DNA from: Haloarchaeobius sp. HME9146
GTDB lineage: Archaea; Halobacteriota; Halobacteria; Halobacteriales; Natrialbaceae
Direction: 5' to 3'
Length of the DNA stretch: 64,000 bases
NCBI RefSeq assembly: GCF_025399835.1
Contig: NZ_JAODVR010000001.1
Span: 744,001 to 808,000 of the forward strand
Positions 17,849-25,371 of this stretch are shown here, piece by piece. The notes under the pieces are model-generated. The model saw only the letters and a program-made list of their open reading frames with translations, was not told the DNA's origin and searched no databases. How positions within the stretch are numbered: the stretch's first letter is position 1; each line of letters opens with the position of its first letter. Position numbers and translations under genes: made by a program.

Positions 17849-17924
17849 GCCAAGGTGGCAGAGTCCGGCCGAACGCAGCGGCCTGCAGAGCCGCCCATCG
17901 CCGGTTCAAATCCGGCCCTTGGCT
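17849..17924 (+). tRNA. tRNA-Cys(GCA)
   Basis: Acceptor GCCAAGG pairs with CCTTGGC, and the discriminator is T, the known identity base for cysteine tRNAs. The anticodon arm GCGGC-CTGCAGA-GCCGC gives GCA, and the T loop is CGGTTCAAATCCG. It lies downstream of 5S, its usual place in haloarchaeal rRNA operons. Its 3' end is duplicated at 24100-24121, marking it as the target of the integrated element. Confidence 0.97.
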
Positions 17925-17925
17925 T
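17904..17925 (+). repeat. attL: tRNA-Cys 3' end
   Basis: GTTCA-AAT-CCGGCCCTTGGCTT, the T-loop to 3' end of tRNA-Cys, recurs at 24100-24121 as GTTCA-GGG-CCGGCCCTTGGCTT (19 of 22 identical, last 14 exact). The full tRNA remains on this side, as expected when an element integrates into a tRNA 3' half. Confidence 0.85.
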
Positions 17926-17992
17926 GATACCTCCTTTATACAGTTAGTTCAAAGCCATACCTCGACAACCCTCGCCGGTGTGGATCACCGCG

Positions 17993-18635
17993 TCATTTCC
18001 ACCACGGATCCCTGTATCTGATTATTGCCACATCTTCGACGTGCATGACTCCACGGATGAAATCAAAGGTCTTCGCAACCCCGCCGAATATGTTGCCATT
18101 CTCCCGGTAATTCGTGGGGAGGATGAGACACCCAATCTCAATTCTATGCCTTTTTACGGTACGCCTGAGCTCTATTGATGAATTTCAAGAGGTCGTCACT
18201 TACGCGCTTGCGCTCGCTTTTCTCTATCTCGATAGCAATGCGGTTCTCAGCGTGATAGAGGTCAACGCTGTGGTCGAAGTTCTTGTCTTTCCAAATCTCA
18301 GTTGCCGAGTATCGTCCGGATTCGGGTGCTTGTTCGTACTCATACTCCGGAAGCGAATTAGCAATCTCGTTGTCGAAGGCTTGCAGTTCATGACGACTCT
18401 CGATTTCGACGAAAGCGGTATCTCGGATCCCAAGATACCTTCCCACGAACGTATAGCCAGGCGACTTGGTGAGGCTGGCCTTGATACCGAACGGTTCATC
18501 GACGTTCACGACGGCGAGAAGAAAATCTCGGACCACGCGAAGTTCGGTCCAGAGCGCGTCAAAGTGTTGAGGCGGTTGCCACGCTGCCGGCAGTGCTCAA
18601 CCGAGGTAATCACCGGTTGCCGGGTAAGACCTCAT
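17993..18635 (-). pseudogene. broken restriction-endonuclease gene, BamHI/BglII-like
   Basis: From ATG 18635 the frame reads MRSYPATGDYLG and meets a TGA (18597-18599). It then continues with ALPAAWQPPQHFDALWTELR and a long coding-like stretch to about 18150. A run of five A (minus strand, 18151-18155) then shifts the frame. After the shift it reads RHRIEIGCLILPTNYREN and ends near 17993 with IIRYRDPWWK. The whole is about 214 codons, the normal size of small type II enzymes. The core VDLYHAENRIAIEIEKS fits the D...ExE active site seen in BamHI/BglII-type nucleases. A shorter product from GTG 18536 to 18144 (130 residues) could still be made but would lack the C-terminus. Confidence 0.7.
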
Positions 18636-18811
18636 CTTCGTGGGGAGCGGCAAGGTCTAGCTCAACGTCCTGATAGGTTTAACGCTGCCAGCGTGAGTGG
18701 GCACAGCTGTTTGTTGTCGTCTGGTTCGATGTGTGGCTACAAGATAACCCCGCATCCACAATGGTGGGAACGTTATAAACGAATCGAACGAATTAGTTCA
18801 ATTAGTCTGAT

Positions 18812-18822
18812 ACTTTTTAAGC
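18812..18822 (+). promoter_or_regulatory. TATA-like box of the nuclease gene
   Basis: ACTTTTTAAGC lies about 30 bases before ATG 18850. With the usual archaeal TATA-to-start distance of about 26 bases, transcription would begin at or just before the start codon and give a leaderless mRNA. Short AATTAG repeats lie just upstream. Confidence 0.5.
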
Positions 18823-18849
18823 GGGCACAGGCGGTACGTCCAGCTACCA

Positions 18850-20037
18850 ATGCAGGATATCTGGGATGTCATCGACGTTGATACCTATCTCGCGTCGATC
18901 GTCAACGAGGACAATATTGAGGAACACCTGATCCAAGAAGCCCGATGGAAGGTATCTTACCGAGACACTCAGTTCAATCAGCGTGGTATGATGGACCGGT
19001 ACCACCGTGCCATGGAACTTGACGAAAGATCTCTGGACTGGGAGGACCTCGGTGTCTCCGACCAAGCTATCGAAACCCTAGGAAATAACGGCATCACACA
19101 ACAGCAGCTGCACCAGTTCTTTGCCCACCCGACCATCCTCACAGCAAACAACAACCTGTTCGAACACTACCGAACCCTTGCCGGTGTCTCCGACAACCGG
19201 CTCCGCGACATAGGAAGTGTCCGGTCCGCCGTTCGCCAGCTTCGGAACGACAACCAGAGGGTCACAGAAACCGAGGAACTCCGCCGGCTTTGTAGGTTCT
19301 TCAACTCCTTGATTAGCACATGGGCATCCAGCCTCACCGACGACGATCCAGAGGCACGGGCCCTGATTAGCGTTGCTTTGACCGAGGGCTCGGCAATCGA
19401 AGGTTCCTCGCGGAACGCTGGTGGGAGAAAAGCCGTGGTCAATGTTGGATCTGTTATCGTTGAGGACCTGTGGGAGCACGACCAATTGGAGTCGTTCCGG
19501 TTCAAACTCACATCTGGCGATAGCTTCAAAACCGTACCGGTCTCCTTAGTCGGAGAGGAACACACCATATCGGAGATCTCCGGTGCATACGCCATTGAGA
19601 AAATCACTGCAACCAACGGTGGTGAGGTTGCGTTCACCGAGCCTGATATGATCGTGCGGTCTCCACGGGGTGTTGAGGGATTCGGCGAGATCAAGGACCG
19701 AAAGGACACCAGCAACCAGTGGGAGGGTTGGCTACCGCTAATCAGAAGTAAACTTGAGGACTTCAAGGATCGGAACCCAGATGCGAAACGGATTATGATC
19801 CAGCCAGTCTATACCGAACGCATGATCCACGGTGAGCGCGGTAGTGATGCACGGGACGTCGGAATCCGCGACTTCATTCTGGAAGACGACCTGCTGGATG
19901 TCCCGTTCAACATGAGCCAGATGCTCGCAGACGAAGACGTCAGAGACTTCTTCGGTAGCTACATCCGCTACCTCATGGGTCTGACTGACAGCTTCGAGTA
20001 TCGACGGGTACCAGAAACAGCCGACTCTCAGGGTTAG
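18850..20037 (+). CDS. PD-(D/E)XK restriction endonuclease (putative)
   Basis: A 395-residue protein without signal or membrane segment. A PD-(D/E)XK active site is visible as EPDMIVRSPRGVEGFGEIKD, giving Pro265-Asp266 and Glu280-X-Lys282. The N-terminal 200 residues are helical and unlike any family I can name. The gene converges on the C5-cytosine methyltransferase, and the two overlap by 4 bases at their stop codons, a common type II restriction-modification layout. It should cleave the sequence that the methyltransferase protects. The recognition site cannot be told from sequence. It uses fewer GC-rich codons than flanking chromosomal genes. Confidence 0.75.
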   Translation: MQDIWDVIDVDTYLASIVNEDNIEEHLIQEARWKVSYRDTQFNQRGMMDRYHRAMELDERSLDWEDLGVSDQAIETLGNNGITQQQLHQFFAHPTILTANNNLFEHYRTLAGVSDNRLRDIGSVRSAVRQLRNDNQRVTETEELRRLCRFFNSLISTWASSLTDDDPEARALISVALTEGSAIEGSSRNAGGRKAVVNVGSVIVEDLWEHDQLESFRFKLTSGDSFKTVPVSLVGEEHTISEISGAYAIEKITATNGGEVAFTEPDMIVRSPRGVEGFGEIKDRKDTSNQWEGWLPLIRSKLEDFKDRNPDAKRIMIQPVYTERMIHGERGSDARDVGIRDFILEDDLLDVPFNMSQMLADEDVRDFFGSYIRYLMGLTDSFEYRRVPETADSQG

Positions 20038-21167
20038 TCGCTGAAGGCGTTCTCCAACGTCGCCTGCCGCGCACCTTTCTCCTCGATCGGATACCATTGC
20101 TTGACCTCTTCCGCAATCGCTTCCCCCAGTTTCGGCGGCACCGCGTTCCCATTCTGTTCATACCACGAGATAAATGAGCCCTGGAACTCCCAGTCGTCGG
20201 GGAATGACTGCAGCCGAGCTGCTTCACGGACAGTGATGTTCCGGTTCTGCTCCGGGTGGACGTACCGGCCGCATGACGGTGTCGAAGATTTTCGGGTTAT
20301 CGTACCGGCCGGTCGGTCCCAGTGCATCCGGCCATACGTATCACAGAACGATCCCAGATCGCCGTTTTCGGCCCTTTTCTTCATTGAGTCCAGCCAGTAC
20401 TCGTCCTGATATGGTTCGGGAATATCCATCCAGGACCCGCCGTCATTCGGAACCAGGTCCAACATTTTGACGATTCGATCGGTGTGGTTGGGGGCCCGAT
20501 GCATCGGATCGTCCGGATCCTCTTCCCCGGCCTTAACGGGTGGCAGATCCTCGATTGCATCCCGAACTGTACGGTGGTCATCAACGTTTGGACTAGGTAG
20601 CTCAACTTTACGGCTGTCTTTTCGAGCAATGATAATTGCCCGGTTCCGGCGTTGCGGCACCCCGAAGTCTGCCGCGTTAAGAATATCTGACTTGACTAGA
20701 TAGCCGGCGTCTTTCAGAATCTCGTAGGTCCGGTTCCAGTACTTCTCCTTCGATCCCCGGATCAGTTCGGGAACATTTTCCATGACGAAAAACTCGGGTT
20801 CCATCTCGACAGCGAGCTCAGCGCTGAACGAAACCAGCGTGTTCCGCTCGTCATGGTCATAGTCATCCTTGTTACGGTGCTGGCTGAAACCCTGGCATGG
20901 CGCACAGGAGATCAGGACATCTAATTCTCCCTTGCTGACACCGAACTCGTCAAGGAGGCCGTCAGCAGTGTAATTTGTAATATCTCCAATAATTGGTTCG
21001 GTCCCGATGTTGTGCCCGTAAGTTTCACAGGCGTTTTCGTTCTGATCGATTGCGCCGACGCAGTCGAATCCCACCTGTTCGAAACCCTGGCTCATACCGC
21101 CGCACCCGCTGAAAAGGTCTACGTATTGAAGGTCGTCCAGTTCGTCAGTGACGTTTCTATCCGACAT
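20034..21167 (-). CDS. DNA (cytosine-5-)-methyltransferase
   Basis: A C5 methyltransferase with the ordered motifs intact. Motif I is DLFSGCGGMSQGFEQ, and motif IV APCQGFS holds catalytic Cys91. Motif VI is ENV (130-132), motif VIII QRRNRAIII, motif IX REAARLQSFPDDW and motif X GNAVPP. I start at ATG 21167 (MSDRNVTDE), because TTATAA at about 21204 would place transcription start near 21180, downstream of the other in-frame ATG at 21197. From 21167 the protein has 377 residues; the longer form has 387. It is the modification partner of the convergent nuclease and generates 5-methylcytosine in the host DNA. Confidence 0.95.
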   Translation of the reverse strand: MSDRNVTDELDDLQYVDLFSGCGGMSQGFEQVGFDCVGAIDQNENACETYGHNIGTEPIIGDITNYTADGLLDEFGVSKGELDVLISCAPCQGFSQHRNKDDYDHDERNTLVSFSAELAVEMEPEFFVMENVPELIRGSKEKYWNRTYEILKDAGYLVKSDILNAADFGVPQRRNRAIIIARKDSRKVELPSPNVDDHRTVRDAIEDLPPVKAGEEDPDDPMHRAPNHTDRIVKMLDLVPNDGGSWMDIPEPYQDEYWLDSMKKRAENGDLGSFCDTYGRMHWDRPAGTITRKSSTPSCGRYVHPEQNRNITVREAARLQSFPDDWEFQGSFISWYEQNGNAVPPKLGEAIAEEVKQWYPIEEKGARQATLENAFSD

Positions 21168-21331
21168 CGATTCTTCAACTGTATTTTCACCGGGCATGTG
21201 TCTTATAACCTCTGCTGTTGACGGGTCCTAGTGGTAAAGAACTTTCTAGTATTATTCGACTCAAAAGTCCAATTAGGCCTTCAAGCGCTCTTTCGTGCAA
21301 TTATTACAATAGAGGCATCCAGTGCCTATGT

Positions 21332-21511
21332 ATGGAAAAATACTTGCTCAACGTGACCACAATCCAGCAGGGCCATAAGATGCAGCTGGTGAAAGAGGTC
21401 CGCGAGAAATGGGGTGAGGACATGACAGAACCGGGTGGTAAGATCGCGTTCTACGAAGATGACGACGGTAACATCATTATTGAACCCGCGGGTAAGCCTG
21501 GCGAGGATTGA
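21332..21511 (+). CDS. AbrB-like small protein
   Basis: A 59-residue protein starting MEKYLLNVTTIQQGHKMQL, followed by VREKWGEDMTEPGGKIAFYE and DDGNIIIEPAG. The pattern of a beta strand, a Lys-rich turn, a 'gdkv'-like acidic stretch and a final strand fits the AbrB/MazE DNA-binding fold. It overlaps the glycosylase gene as TGATG, so the two are translated together. It is a candidate regulator of the restriction-modification genes, divergent from the methyltransferase. Alternatively it is an orphan antitoxin-like protein; no toxin gene is adjacent. Confidence 0.65.
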   Translation: MEKYLLNVTTIQQGHKMQLVKEVREKWGEDMTEPGGKIAFYEDDDGNIIIEPAGKPGED

Positions 21512-22302
21512 TGAACGCGACCGCAACGTTACCGTTCGGTCAAACCACAACAAGCTACGAGGAGCTACTGGACACTACCGATATCGATGCGGCCTCGGAT
21601 ATCGCATCCAACTTCGGAGTTACCGACCCGAAAGCTTCGACTGACGCATTTCTTCGGCAGGTACCCCACCTGCTCTCCTGGCTTGCAGAATACGGTCGCC
21701 AGTATCCATGGAGGGACACGAAAGACCCATGGAAGGTGTATCTTACCGAGATACTGCTACAACGTACCAACGGTAACGCTGTTGCTACCATCTACGACGA
21801 TGTCCTTGATCGCTTCCCGTCGCCATGTAGTCTTGACCGTGCAACAGATGAAGAGATCCAGCAAGTCGTCTACTCATTAGGATTGGTCGATAACCGTGTA
21901 AAGACCCTACGCAGTATCGGAACCACGTTCTGCAACGAATACAATAATAACGTCCCCGATGCACTTGAGAAGCTCAAAGAACCGTGGGGCGTCGGAAACT
22001 ACTCCGCACGAGCTACCCAGCTGTTTGCCAGAGACCGAGCACTTGCCCTGGTCGACGCAAATATTATAAGAGTCATCGAGCGGGTTCTGGATTTAGAGAT
22101 GCCCCAACAACCCCACAAAGACGACGATGTATACCGGTTCATGGAAGCTCTGACGCCGGATACACCGGAATTGGCCCGCGCATTCAACCTGGCACTGCTC
22201 GACCTCGGTGCCCTCATATGTACACCGACCAATCCAGCATGCGAATCGTGCCCTATTAACGAGTGCTGCACATACTATATGAAAACAAAGCTGGTCAAGT
22301 GA
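21511..22302 (+). CDS. T:G / U:G mismatch DNA glycosylase, Mig-type (HhH-GPD, FeS)
   Basis: A 263-residue member of the endonuclease III/MutY superfamily. The helix-hairpin-helix reads WGVGNYSARA. The position that is Lys in endonuclease III is Tyr164, as in the thermophilic archaeal Mig enzyme that removes T from T:G. The catalytic Asp182 follows in ALVDANIIRVIERV. Four cysteines (237, 244, 247, 253) match the C-X6-C-X2-C-X5-C FeS cluster. An N-terminal 45-residue extension is unassigned. The start at ATG 21511 is set by the TGATG overlap. Next to a C5 methyltransferase its likely job is to repair T:G mismatches left by deamination of 5-methylcytosine, the role that Vsr plays in bacteria. 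Confidence 0.88.
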   Translation: MNATATLPFGQTTTSYEELLDTTDIDAASDIASNFGVTDPKASTDAFLRQVPHLLSWLAEYGRQYPWRDTKDPWKVYLTEILLQRTNGNAVATIYDDVLDRFPSPCSLDRATDEEIQQVVYSLGLVDNRVKTLRSIGTTFCNEYNNNVPDALEKLKEPWGVGNYSARATQLFARDRALALVDANIIRVIERVLDLEMPQQPHKDDDVYRFMEALTPDTPELARAFNLALLDLGALICTPTNPACESCPINECCTYYMKTKLVK

Positions 22303-22305
22303 TCT

Positions 22306-22728
22306 ATGAAGTACTTCTGGCTCAATCAAAAGGACTCAGATAGCAGTCCATACAAGGACGAGGAGGGACAGGTCTACCACTACCGTGAGTACACACCGGG
22401 CTACAAGCAACTTTCGACTGGTGACCGGTTCGTCTACTACCGACCTGGCAAACATGTCTTGTTCGGGACCGGAACAATCGGAGATGTCGAACAACGGGAG
22501 TGGGGCATGGGAGATGGGACAGAAACCCACATCGAGTACTACGCCCACATCGAGAACTATCGGCCGTTCGACCCTGAACTCAATGTCAGGGAGATTAAGA
22601 ACCAGATATCGTTCCTTCAGGACCGCAATGGACTATCTGGAGTACCGCAAAATAGTATCCGCCGTCTCGATAAAGATGATTTCTTGACAATTATTGAAGC
22701 GGCTGGTGTCGAACTGTTCGATGTCTAA
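22306..22728 (+). CDS. EVE/PUA-like domain protein (possible modified-base reader)
   Basis: A 140-residue protein beginning MKYFWLNQKDSDSSPYKDEE. It has a beta-rich core (QLSTGDRFVYYRPGKHVLFG, then GTGTIGDVE) that resembles EVE/PUA-type domains found alone or fused to restriction endonucleases, where they bind modified bases. The last 40 residues are helical (VREIKNQISFLQDRNGLSG). It starts 3 bases after the glycosylase stop and is in the same operon. A role in sensing 5-methylcytosine or in guiding the glycosylase is possible but inferred only from context. No nuclease motif is seen. Confidence 0.6.
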   Translation: MKYFWLNQKDSDSSPYKDEEGQVYHYREYTPGYKQLSTGDRFVYYRPGKHVLFGTGTIGDVEQREWGMGDGTETHIEYYAHIENYRPFDPELNVREIKNQISFLQDRNGLSGVPQNSIRRLDKDDFLTIIEAAGVELFDV

Positions 22729-22801
22729 ACTGATTGGCCCTATTGGAATAGTTAAAATTACGGTGTGGATAGTCGCGAGAAAGATAACAAATGTAGACAT
22801 T

Positions 22802-24034
22802 CTATTCGCCGACTCTCATTCGTTCGAGAAGCGCCGTCTTCACGTCCGGGTCGTCGAGGAGGCTGTCAATGGTCTCGATTTTCTCTCGTATGCTTGTGTC
22901 CTCCGGGTCCGTTTCGGCGTAGTCCTGTTTCACGTCGTCCTGTATTTCCTCAACCTGGCTGCCGCCTCAACGCGCATGGCTTGACCACAGCGGGAACAGA
23001 AGTGCGCTCGCGCTTCTCCTAATACCCACACCGGGGGACAGGGAACCGGTCCGATATGCTCGGTCTCCCTTCGTCGACATCGAGACCATGGAGCCTCGCC
23101 AGTTCGTTGTCGGTGTCCTCGCCGAAGATGGTAACGTACCGGCTGGCGGTCGCGAACCGCGGACCCACCCGTGTCGCTGTTTGAGGTGTGCCTGGCTCAG
23201 CCCTTTGCTGGCGTGGTAACTCGCGCTACTCTTGCGGAAGTTCGTCAGCGTCACCGGTTTGCCCACGCCGGCGCGGTCGGCCGGCTTCTTGAACATCTTA
23301 GTGAGCAGCCGATAACTGATACCCTCGGGCTCGGTCAGTTTCGACCACAGTGGGGCGTCGAGGTCCGACGGCTCGGGGTGTTCGTCGAGCCAGTCGCGCA
23401 CGTAGGGGGACGCTCGGAATCAGTAGTACCGTCCGGCTGCTTTCCGCCGGCCGTCACCCGGAGTCCGTGTTCGTGGTCCGTGACGTCCCCGACGGTGAGG
23501 TCGCTGAACTCGAACCCATGAAGCCCAGCGTCGAACTGGAGTGCAATAGCAGCGGCATCGCGCCTTGTTTTGTCGGCTCAATCATCGGGATGACGTCCTT
23601 GTTCCAATCGAGCATGTTCCCAGGCTTGGGTGCCGGGTCGTAGTTCCTCGACGTACTGGATGGAATCCAGTTGAGGGAAGCGGGCGGTTCGTCGGGGTCG
23701 CCCCCCACGCCGTCGTCGGTGACACGGCAGCCGAACACTTTCAGCGCCACACGGTAGTCCTGATTTATTTCCTCGGTGTTGTAGCCCCGATTAATCCAGC
23801 GAACGATGGCCTCGGCGTCCGGTTTTTCGATCAGCGCCGTGTTAATGCTGCCCACCCGTTTCGCGATGGTGAGAACGTGGCGTAGCAGTTTGACGTGCCG
23901 GTAGGTGGAGTAGTTCGAGTGCAACAGCGTCAGCGCGTCGTCGAACGCCGGAGGGCGTCACGGTCGTCCTCGCTAACGTCGGCTTCCTCTATTCGGTCGC
24001 GTAGGTTTTTTAGTTGGACCTCCAGGGAAGTCAT
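22802..24034 (-). pseudogene. tyrosine integrase gene broken by several frameshifts
   Basis: The start ATG is at 24034 (MTSLEVQLKNLRDRIEEADV). Coding-like pieces follow in changing frames. LHSNYSTYRHVKLLRHVLTI belongs to the core-binding domain and DAAAIALQFDAGLHGFEFSD to the start of the catalytic domain. YRLLTKMFKKPADRAGVGK, TNFRKSSASYHASKG and RFASRYVTIFG hold the Arg and Tyr regions. A zinc-ribbon-like FCSRCGQAM and the tail LLDDPDVKTALLERM end at TAG 22802. Frame changes occur near 23955, 23560, 23410, 23160 and 22950. It is the integrase of the surrounding element and lies next to attR. Confidence 0.85.
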
Positions 24035-24099
24035 GATTACCCTACGTGACCACTTCAAATATCGTTACTAATTGGCCTTGAGCTCGACTTATTTAGCCA

Positions 24100-24121
24100 G
24101 TTCAGGGCCGGCCCTTGGCTT
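24100..24121 (+). repeat. attR: partial copy of the tRNA-Cys 3' end
   Basis: GTTCA-GGG-CCGGCCCTTGGCTT matches attL at 17904-17925 in 19 of 22 positions, with the last 14 bases exact. The following TCTTTCG is T-rich, as expected for the original tRNA trailer now displaced by 6.2 kb. GC content rises again right after it. Confidence 0.85.
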
Positions 24122-24192
24122 CTTTCGAATTCGATTCGTGAGCGACCGGTCTCGACTTCAGGCCGCGTCGTGGCGACAAATCTTCCGAGTCG

Positions 24193-25239
24193 TCACGCCC
24201 AGTCGAGCCCGCTCGGCTCGACCGGCGCAGGCAACGGACTCGTCGGCAGCTCCGCGTCTAGCTCGGGGTCGTTGTACCCGCCGGGGGCCACGTCGTTGGG
24301 GGCGTCGGGGTAGAACAGCGAGGCGAGCGCCTGGATGTGGCCGCGCCCGACCACGAGTTCGAACTGGCCGCCGCCGTACATCGTGATGTCTCGTTCCACG
24401 CAGTAGTCGATGGTGTCGAGCAGGGACTCGACGGTGCCGAACCGCGAGGGTTTGATGTTGAGCCACCGGGGCTCGAACGGGAGGGATTCGACGCTCTCGA
24501 TGCCGGTGATGGGGTAGTCCCAGCTGACGCGGGCTTCGTGGTCGTCGAAGATGTGTCGAGTGTCGTCGGTGATCCCAGGGTCTTCGATGACGCTGTCCGG
24601 GAACCCCTCGACGACGCGCCGGTAGAGCTCGGGGTCCGGTTCCTGGTCGACGCTCGTACCCTCGTAGAGGCCCTTGAGGTCGAGGACCCGGACCGCCCCG
24701 GTGTCGGCGAGGCTGGCGACGAGGTCGTCGTCCCAGTCGGGGGTCGGGTCGAGTTTGAACTCGGCGTCGGGGAAGACGCGCTGGATCGCGTCGATGCGGT
24801 CGAACGTCGGCGGGTCGCCGAGGCGGGTGCTGACGATGAAGCGGACGGGGTCGTAGGACCGCCCGAGTGCCTCCCCGAGCGAGGTTCCGGCCTGCTTGAG
24901 CGCGAGGTCGAGGGCGGCGCTCTCGACGGCCCAGCGCCGGTAGTGGTGGGCGGTGTCGCGTTCGGGTGGCTGCGGGAACAGCGAGACGTCGTCGAGGAAA
25001 GCGGAGAACGTTCCGTGCGTGTACGTGCCCGCGAAATCGAAGTCGTGGTTCTCGATGAGGGCGTCGTGGTCCGGGGTGTCGTAGGTGACGTCCTCGCCAC
25101 GGCCGACGTGCCCGTCGCCGTGGAGTTCGAACACCGTCGAGACGCGGGTGAAGTCACTGGAGGTGTCGCGTTCGTGTCGGGTCAGCTCGTAGCTGTCGAT
25201 GTTGAGGGTGAGGTCGGCCAGGGCGTCGTACAGTCCCAT
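24193..25239 (-). CDS. enolase-superfamily protein
   Basis: A 348-residue protein starting MGLYDALADLTLNIDSYEL. A barrel typical of the mandelate racemase/muconate cycloisomerase branch is suggested by spaced motifs: FKLDPTPDW, VRVLDLKGLYEG, SVIEDPG, RWLNIKPSRFG and MYGGGQFELVVGRGHIQALA. These positions correspond to the strand ends that carry metal ligands and acid/base residues. The substrate is unknown. I start at ATG 25239, because the upstream 34 codons of open frame are unlike protein and overlap the promoter of the divergent gene. Confidence 0.75.
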   Translation of the reverse strand: MGLYDALADLTLNIDSYELTRHERDTSSDFTRVSTVFELHGDGHVGRGEDVTYDTPDHDALIENHDFDFAGTYTHGTFSAFLDDVSLFPQPPERDTAHHYRRWAVESAALDLALKQAGTSLGEALGRSYDPVRFIVSTRLGDPPTFDRIDAIQRVFPDAEFKLDPTPDWDDDLVASLADTGAVRVLDLKGLYEGTSVDQEPDPELYRRVVEGFPDSVIEDPGITDDTRHIFDDHEARVSWDYPITGIESVESLPFEPRWLNIKPSRFGTVESLLDTIDYCVERDITMYGGGQFELVVGRGHIQALASLFYPDAPNDVAPGGYNDPELDAELPTSPLPAPVEPSGLDWA

Positions 25240-25371
25240 GGACTGATGATTGGGCAGACAGGGAGAAGGGTCTACCGCCGACCCGGTTCCAGACGGCTGT
25301 TCGCGAGTCGGCGAAAGGGAGCCAGTGACGGTCGGTCTCACCGGTTGAGAGAGTTAGTAATCGTTATACGC

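Follow-up and report, generated by a model that had tools for sequence, protein, structure and literature searches.

The chromosome of the haloarchaeon Haloarchaeobius sp. HME9146 (genome G000) carries a small defence island in the 3′ end of its tRNA-Cys gene. The window analysed here is a 64,000-nucleotide stretch of that chromosome (C1:744001-808000), and positions below refer to it unless stated otherwise. Positions 17912-24121, 6.2 kb in all, make up a mobile element that has integrated into the chromosome. Its target, the tRNA-Cys (GCA) gene identified by ARAGORN at 17849..17924 on the plus strand, is single copy in the genome and was restored intact as attL. The attL core (CCGGCCCTTGGCTT, 17912..17925, plus strand) recurs as the attR core (CCGGCCCTTGGCTT, 24108..24121, plus strand), and the chromosome restarts at 24122. 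A preliminary description of this DNA had reported a 22-bp repeat of the tRNA end. Positions 17904-17925 (GTTCAAATCCGGCCCTTGGCTT) and 24100-24121 (GTTCAGGGCCGGCCCTTGGCTT) are indeed identical at 19 of 22 bases, the final 14 being exact, but the exact duplication is 14 nt long and not 22. A tRNA-suffix match of at least 14 nt within the next 7.6 kb appeared in only one of 5000 first-order Markov resamplings. The full tRNA was left at one side, as that description had also stated, with the intact gene at the left end and the 14-nt copy at the right.

An empty site in a congener

An enolase-like gene (24193..25341, minus strand) lies just outside the island and is conserved near tRNA-Cys in all five sampled congeners. 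In one of them, G069, TTCTTTCGTACTCGATCCGTGAGCGAC and the enolase-like gene come straight after the tRNA-Cys gene (505-580 of that locus); at the end of attR in the window, the counterpart is TTCTTTCGAATTCGATTCGTGAGCGAC. When the window flanks were joined without 17926-24121 and compared with G069, one uninterrupted high-scoring segment pair ran across the join (2748 columns, 86.6% identity). Everything between the att copies is absent from G069, which thus provides an exact empty site and the direct junction between tRNA-Cys and the DNA after 24121 that an island-free relative should have. The island was therefore inserted in the line of descent leading to the species analysed here. The other congeners (G081, G056, G037 and G009) have two further genes, 1.9 kb in all, between tRNA-Cys and the enolase-like gene. 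Because of these genes, G069 represents the pre-insertion state for the G000/G069 lineage only, and the earlier claim that the island separated tRNA-Cys from its original downstream DNA holds within that lineage. Judged by eye from their sequence, the two genes may encode a metallo-beta-lactamase/lamin-tail protein and a DUF3006-like protein.

The relic of the recombination enzyme lies next to attR, where the preliminary description had placed an integrase remnant. A tblastn search with intact relatives (L119, L127, L133) revealed a full-length tyrosine integrase pseudogene (22820..24036, minus strand), broken into several frame segments with stops. The alignment extends between about 24017 and 22820, spans almost the entire protein and is multiply frameshifted; one piece matches the XerA model (E=0.002). 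The pseudogene starts about 60-70 nt inside attR and faces it. Since the integrase is broken, excision or a circular form of the element is unlikely. Integrase matches were obtained in 46 of 121 sampled genomes of the same family (own genome included), the intact ones mostly of about 400-430 aa. The N-terminal piece of the window integrase is about 45-55% identical to intact family relatives and, where readable, about 40% identical to the integrases of the Halorubrum viruses BJ1 and Humcor1. However, the reported target of BJ1 is a coding gene (PMC8371274), whereas the window element targets a tRNA and its integrase is broken. A search of viral contigs for relatives of the integrase confirmed none.

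Short motifs accompany these integrases. Just upstream of 14 of 19 related integrases, a stretch that resembles a tRNA end precedes GGTTCAAAGC or GGTTCAATGT, a motif present in 17 of 1077 background windows. By comparison with these relatives, AGTTCAAAGC (17946..17955, plus strand), about 20 nt inside attL, is a possible arm site, and its counterpart in genome G017 is GGTTCAAAGC. We infer that these motifs are integrase-binding arms.

Genome G017 (L134-L136, C1:1876000-1931000) contains the same 14-nt core twice, 50,358 bp apart, and thus a 50.4-kb tRNA-Cys element. tRNA-Cys stands at one end and an intact integrase at the other, at attR, in the same place as in the window; the tRNA-end-like stretch upstream of this integrase is the end of tRNA-Cys proper. 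The arm motif is present on both inner sides, in inverted orientation. Among the cargo of this element are a Dam-type methyltransferase and DndF-, DndG- and DndH-like proteins. The two elements, in G000 and G017, mark tRNA-Cys as a site through which defence genes have entered more than once. The view that a single element integrated in tRNA-Cys is supported by the duplicated tRNA end together with the empty site in G069, the decayed integrase at attR and the related G017 element.

The architecture is that of known haloarchaeal proviruses and elements integrated in tRNA genes, such as Humcor2 (in tRNA-Pro) and SNJ2. These have a 13-14-nt att core (PMC7911831, PMC8371274), an intact tRNA on one side and, on the other, an integrase gene next to the duplicated 3′ end. 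Unlike them, the window element targets tRNA-Cys, is only 6.2 kb long, has an integrase pseudogene and carries defence and repair cargo. No viral or replication genes were recognised among the island genes. Viral structural genes, as expected of a provirus, were found neither among them with Pfam, NCBIfam and PADLOC nor in the four pieces run against PHROGs. The literature searched yielded no direct precedent for tRNA-Cys elements.

Restriction-modification and putative repair cargo

The genes between the repeats are of lower GC content, in agreement with the preliminary description: 0.50-0.54 for the cargo genes, with 0.57-0.65 at third codon positions (GC3), compared to 0.65-0.68 (GC3 0.89-0.92) for the flanking genes. 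They include the restriction-modification (RM) genes that had been announced there. A 395-aa XcyI-like restriction endonuclease with a PD...GEIKDRK motif is encoded at 18850..20037 (plus strand; Pfam PF09571, E=2.3e-4), and a 387-aa DNA cytosine-5 methyltransferase at 20034..21197 (minus strand; PF00145, E=4e-70; TIGR00675). The two genes are convergent and their 3′ ends overlap by 4 nt. The endonuclease alone falls below the Pfam threshold, but its orthologue in genome G249 (57-58% identical) passes the PF09571 gathering score. G249 carries this orthologue next to the methyltransferase (75-77% identical) among other genes and without the integrase, the glycosylase or the EVE protein described below, and no tRNA lies within the 19 kb examined there. 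An endonuclease gene adjacent to a methyltransferase gene, kept as a pair in a second genome, is the arrangement of a type II RM system. Homologues of the endonuclease were detected neither in a scan of genome contigs nor in plasmids, and a sequence search against solved structures gave no match. To the left of the pair lies a nuclease-like pseudogene (17993..18536, minus strand) with the motif ...VDLYHAENRIAIEIEKSERK..., frameshifted near 18142 and without a Pfam match. Matches to it occur in 28 of 195 genomes (own genome included), and its intact relatives are about 195-230 aa long.

The island shares endonuclease family PF09571 with the XcyI RM systems, and CCCGGG was taken from that family as putative recognition site, avoidance being expressed as the fraction of the expected count. 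Unlike in those systems, a CCCGGG specificity is unsupported by the site counts here, and the partner of the endonuclease is a 5-methylcytosine (m5C) methyltransferase. GGCGCC was also considered as the recognition site of the island; its value of 0.12 here is uninformative, being equally low in the island-free G081 and G056. The strong avoidance of GGCGCC (0.08-0.12 of expected) in G000, G081 and G056, but not in G069 and G037 (window, L185-L189, L195-L197), is unrelated to the island.

To the right of the RM pair, three plus-strand genes that overlap or adjoin form one operon. The first encodes a 59-aa AbrB/MazE-like protein (21332..21511; PF04014 and TIGR01439, both E=0.006 and below cut-off), and its stop codon overlaps the start of the next gene (TGATG). 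The second (21511..22302) encodes a 263-aa HhH-GPD [4Fe-4S] DNA glycosylase. Among proteins of solved structure it matches Mig.MthI best (1KEA, E=4e-33), with MutY proteins ranking lower. Mig.MthI is the T:G mismatch glycosylase of Methanothermobacter (EMBO J 1996, as cited in PMC2714593), and Mig residues A50 and L187 (V45 and Q182 in Escherichia coli MutY) are specificity determinants (PMC2714593). The window glycosylase has Gly and Leu at these positions and retains Y126, D144 and the four Fe-S cysteines; position 187 is Leu or Phe in 13 long-form homologues. Thus it has thymine-glycosylase rather than MutY specificity residues, and T:G activity is predicted from its sequence. It differs from Mig.MthI in its N-terminal extension of about 50 residues, in Gly for Ala at position 50, in its EVE-fold partner and in its mesophilic halophile host. 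The Mig.MthI gene, like that of the window glycosylase, presumably also lies beside an m5C methyltransferase gene.

The third gene (22306..22728) encodes a 140-aa protein with a sub-threshold Pfam match to EVE (E=0.011). Its AlphaFold2 model has a mean predicted local distance difference test score (pLDDT) of 83, and the best Foldseek match is 2P5D (E=4e-5), followed by the N-terminal domain of an archaeal McrB and by YTH domains. From this model the protein is predicted to adopt the PUA-like EVE/YTH fold of a modified-base reader. EVE homologues were found in four of 292 genomes. Three are encoded directly downstream of a glycosylase of the long-form type found here, and the fourth sits among defence genes, 9 kb away from a glycosylase of the shorter form. 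A survey of EVE contexts (PMC7641849) does not mention glycosylases.

Seventeen other haloarchaeal loci encode the long-form glycosylase in full or in part, and an m5C methyltransferase gene lies nearby in 14 of them. The systems beside these glycosylases vary: some loci have DrmA, DrmB and DrmMII-like proteins (DISARM), and another has BsaWI-like and EcoRII-like endonucleases. The literature searched contained no direct precedent for a glycosylase with DISARM. The Mig-type residues and the methyltransferase linkage support, but do not prove, a role in the repair of deaminated m5C. In G080 (L088:6113-8755) the long-form glycosylase gene is split by about 1.8 kb of other sequence.

Proposed history of the island and alternatives

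We consider it very probable that the island is an integrated element whose integrase has since decayed, and that its cargo combines the RM pair with the coupled glycosylase-EVE operon, two separate modules joined here. An integrase of the haloarchaeal virus or element type would have catalysed recombination between the chromosomal tRNA-Cys gene and an attP that carried a 14-nt copy of the 3′ end of this gene. The outcome is an intact tRNA at the left end and the copy at the right. Decay of the integrase gene would have followed, and the element is therefore probably fixed and now immobile. The nuclease-like gene is broken as well, and the reading frames of the endonuclease, the methyltransferase and the three operon genes are intact. 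By homology, the XcyI-like endonuclease would cut unmethylated DNA and the methyltransferase would protect that of the host. The AbrB-like regulator, the Mig-type glycosylase and the EVE-fold reader may then remove the thymines that arise by deamination of methylated cytosines, as their homology, specificity residues and neighbourhood suggest. With its empty site, the locus is a clean case of a small defence island reaching a haloarchaeal chromosome and becoming fixed once the integrase decays.

Several observations fit this history less well. The right integrase-arm motif is unrecognisable in the window element. The AlphaFold2 model of the endonuclease, built from two sequences, is uninformative (pLDDT 43). 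CCCGGG is no more avoided here (0.74) than in island-free congeners (0.68-0.80); the endonuclease may therefore recognise another site, or the cassette may have arrived recently or be inactive. Finally, the GC content of the integrase remnant (0.61) is unlike that of the cargo, so that separate arrival steps are possible. This last point, the presence of the endonuclease-methyltransferase pair alone at the unrelated G249 site and the broken nuclease gene at the left end are compatible with a two-step origin, in which only the integrase and the ends were left of an old tRNA-Cys element before it captured the RM and glycosylase cassette by other means. We regard such an origin as conceivable without favouring it: none of the DNA between the att copies is present in G069, so that no intermediate is seen, and no inner repeats of a second insertion were noticed. 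That the segment is ordinary core DNA downstream of tRNA-Cys, or the repeat a chance resemblance, is extremely improbable. In four congeners tRNA-Cys and the enolase-like gene are indeed separated by other genes, but these differ from the island genes, the exact empty site in G069 contradicts a core origin, and the repeat is improbable by chance. Recurrence of the island genes as core genes in these relatives, which would have spoken against the preliminary description, is thus not seen.

An island of defence genes integrated in a tRNA gene is a well-known kind of element, and the most interesting part is the recurrence of the glycosylase, with or without EVE, beside unrelated defence systems. 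The AbrB-like regulator and the Mig-type glycosylase, joined in some loci by the EVE reader, might be a portable accessory of unrelated m5C defence systems (XcyI-type RM, BsaWI-like RM, DISARM), with EVE leading the glycosylase to methylated sites; we put this forward tentatively, as an idea that may well prove wrong. If it is true, immunity based on methylation carries the means to limit its own mutations along with it. The recurrent association of a predicted T:G glycosylase, sometimes with EVE, with unrelated m5C systems suggests that a hitchhiking repair gene commonly pays the mutational cost of m5C in haloarchaea. Alternatively, the glycosylase and EVE proteins could serve in defence, by excising modified bases from the DNA of incoming viruses, and not in repair. 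Glycosylase defence exists, as exemplified by Brig1, which excises the T4-type modified cytosine (PMC11078745); EVE-fold readers participate in modification-dependent restriction (PMC7641849), and the operon sits among defence genes. However, the methyltransferase linkage in 14 of 17 loci and the Mig-type residues are better suited to the repair of deaminated m5C, and we consider such a defence role unlikely.

Further repeats were seen around tRNA-Cys in other genomes. In G069 (L026 beyond about 2600), the genes that follow the empty site give way to repeated antisense tRNA-end-like stretches (GGGCCGGGAGGGACTTGAAC). In other genera of the family (L031, L032, L033, L034, L035, L036, L037, L039), tRNA-Cys is immediately followed by at least one tandem unit of about 100-115 bp. 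Each unit contains an inverted copy of the T-arm (GGATTTGAACC) and, at its end, repeats the last 24 nt of tRNA-Cys almost exactly. These units could be serial integration scars or repeats of another kind.

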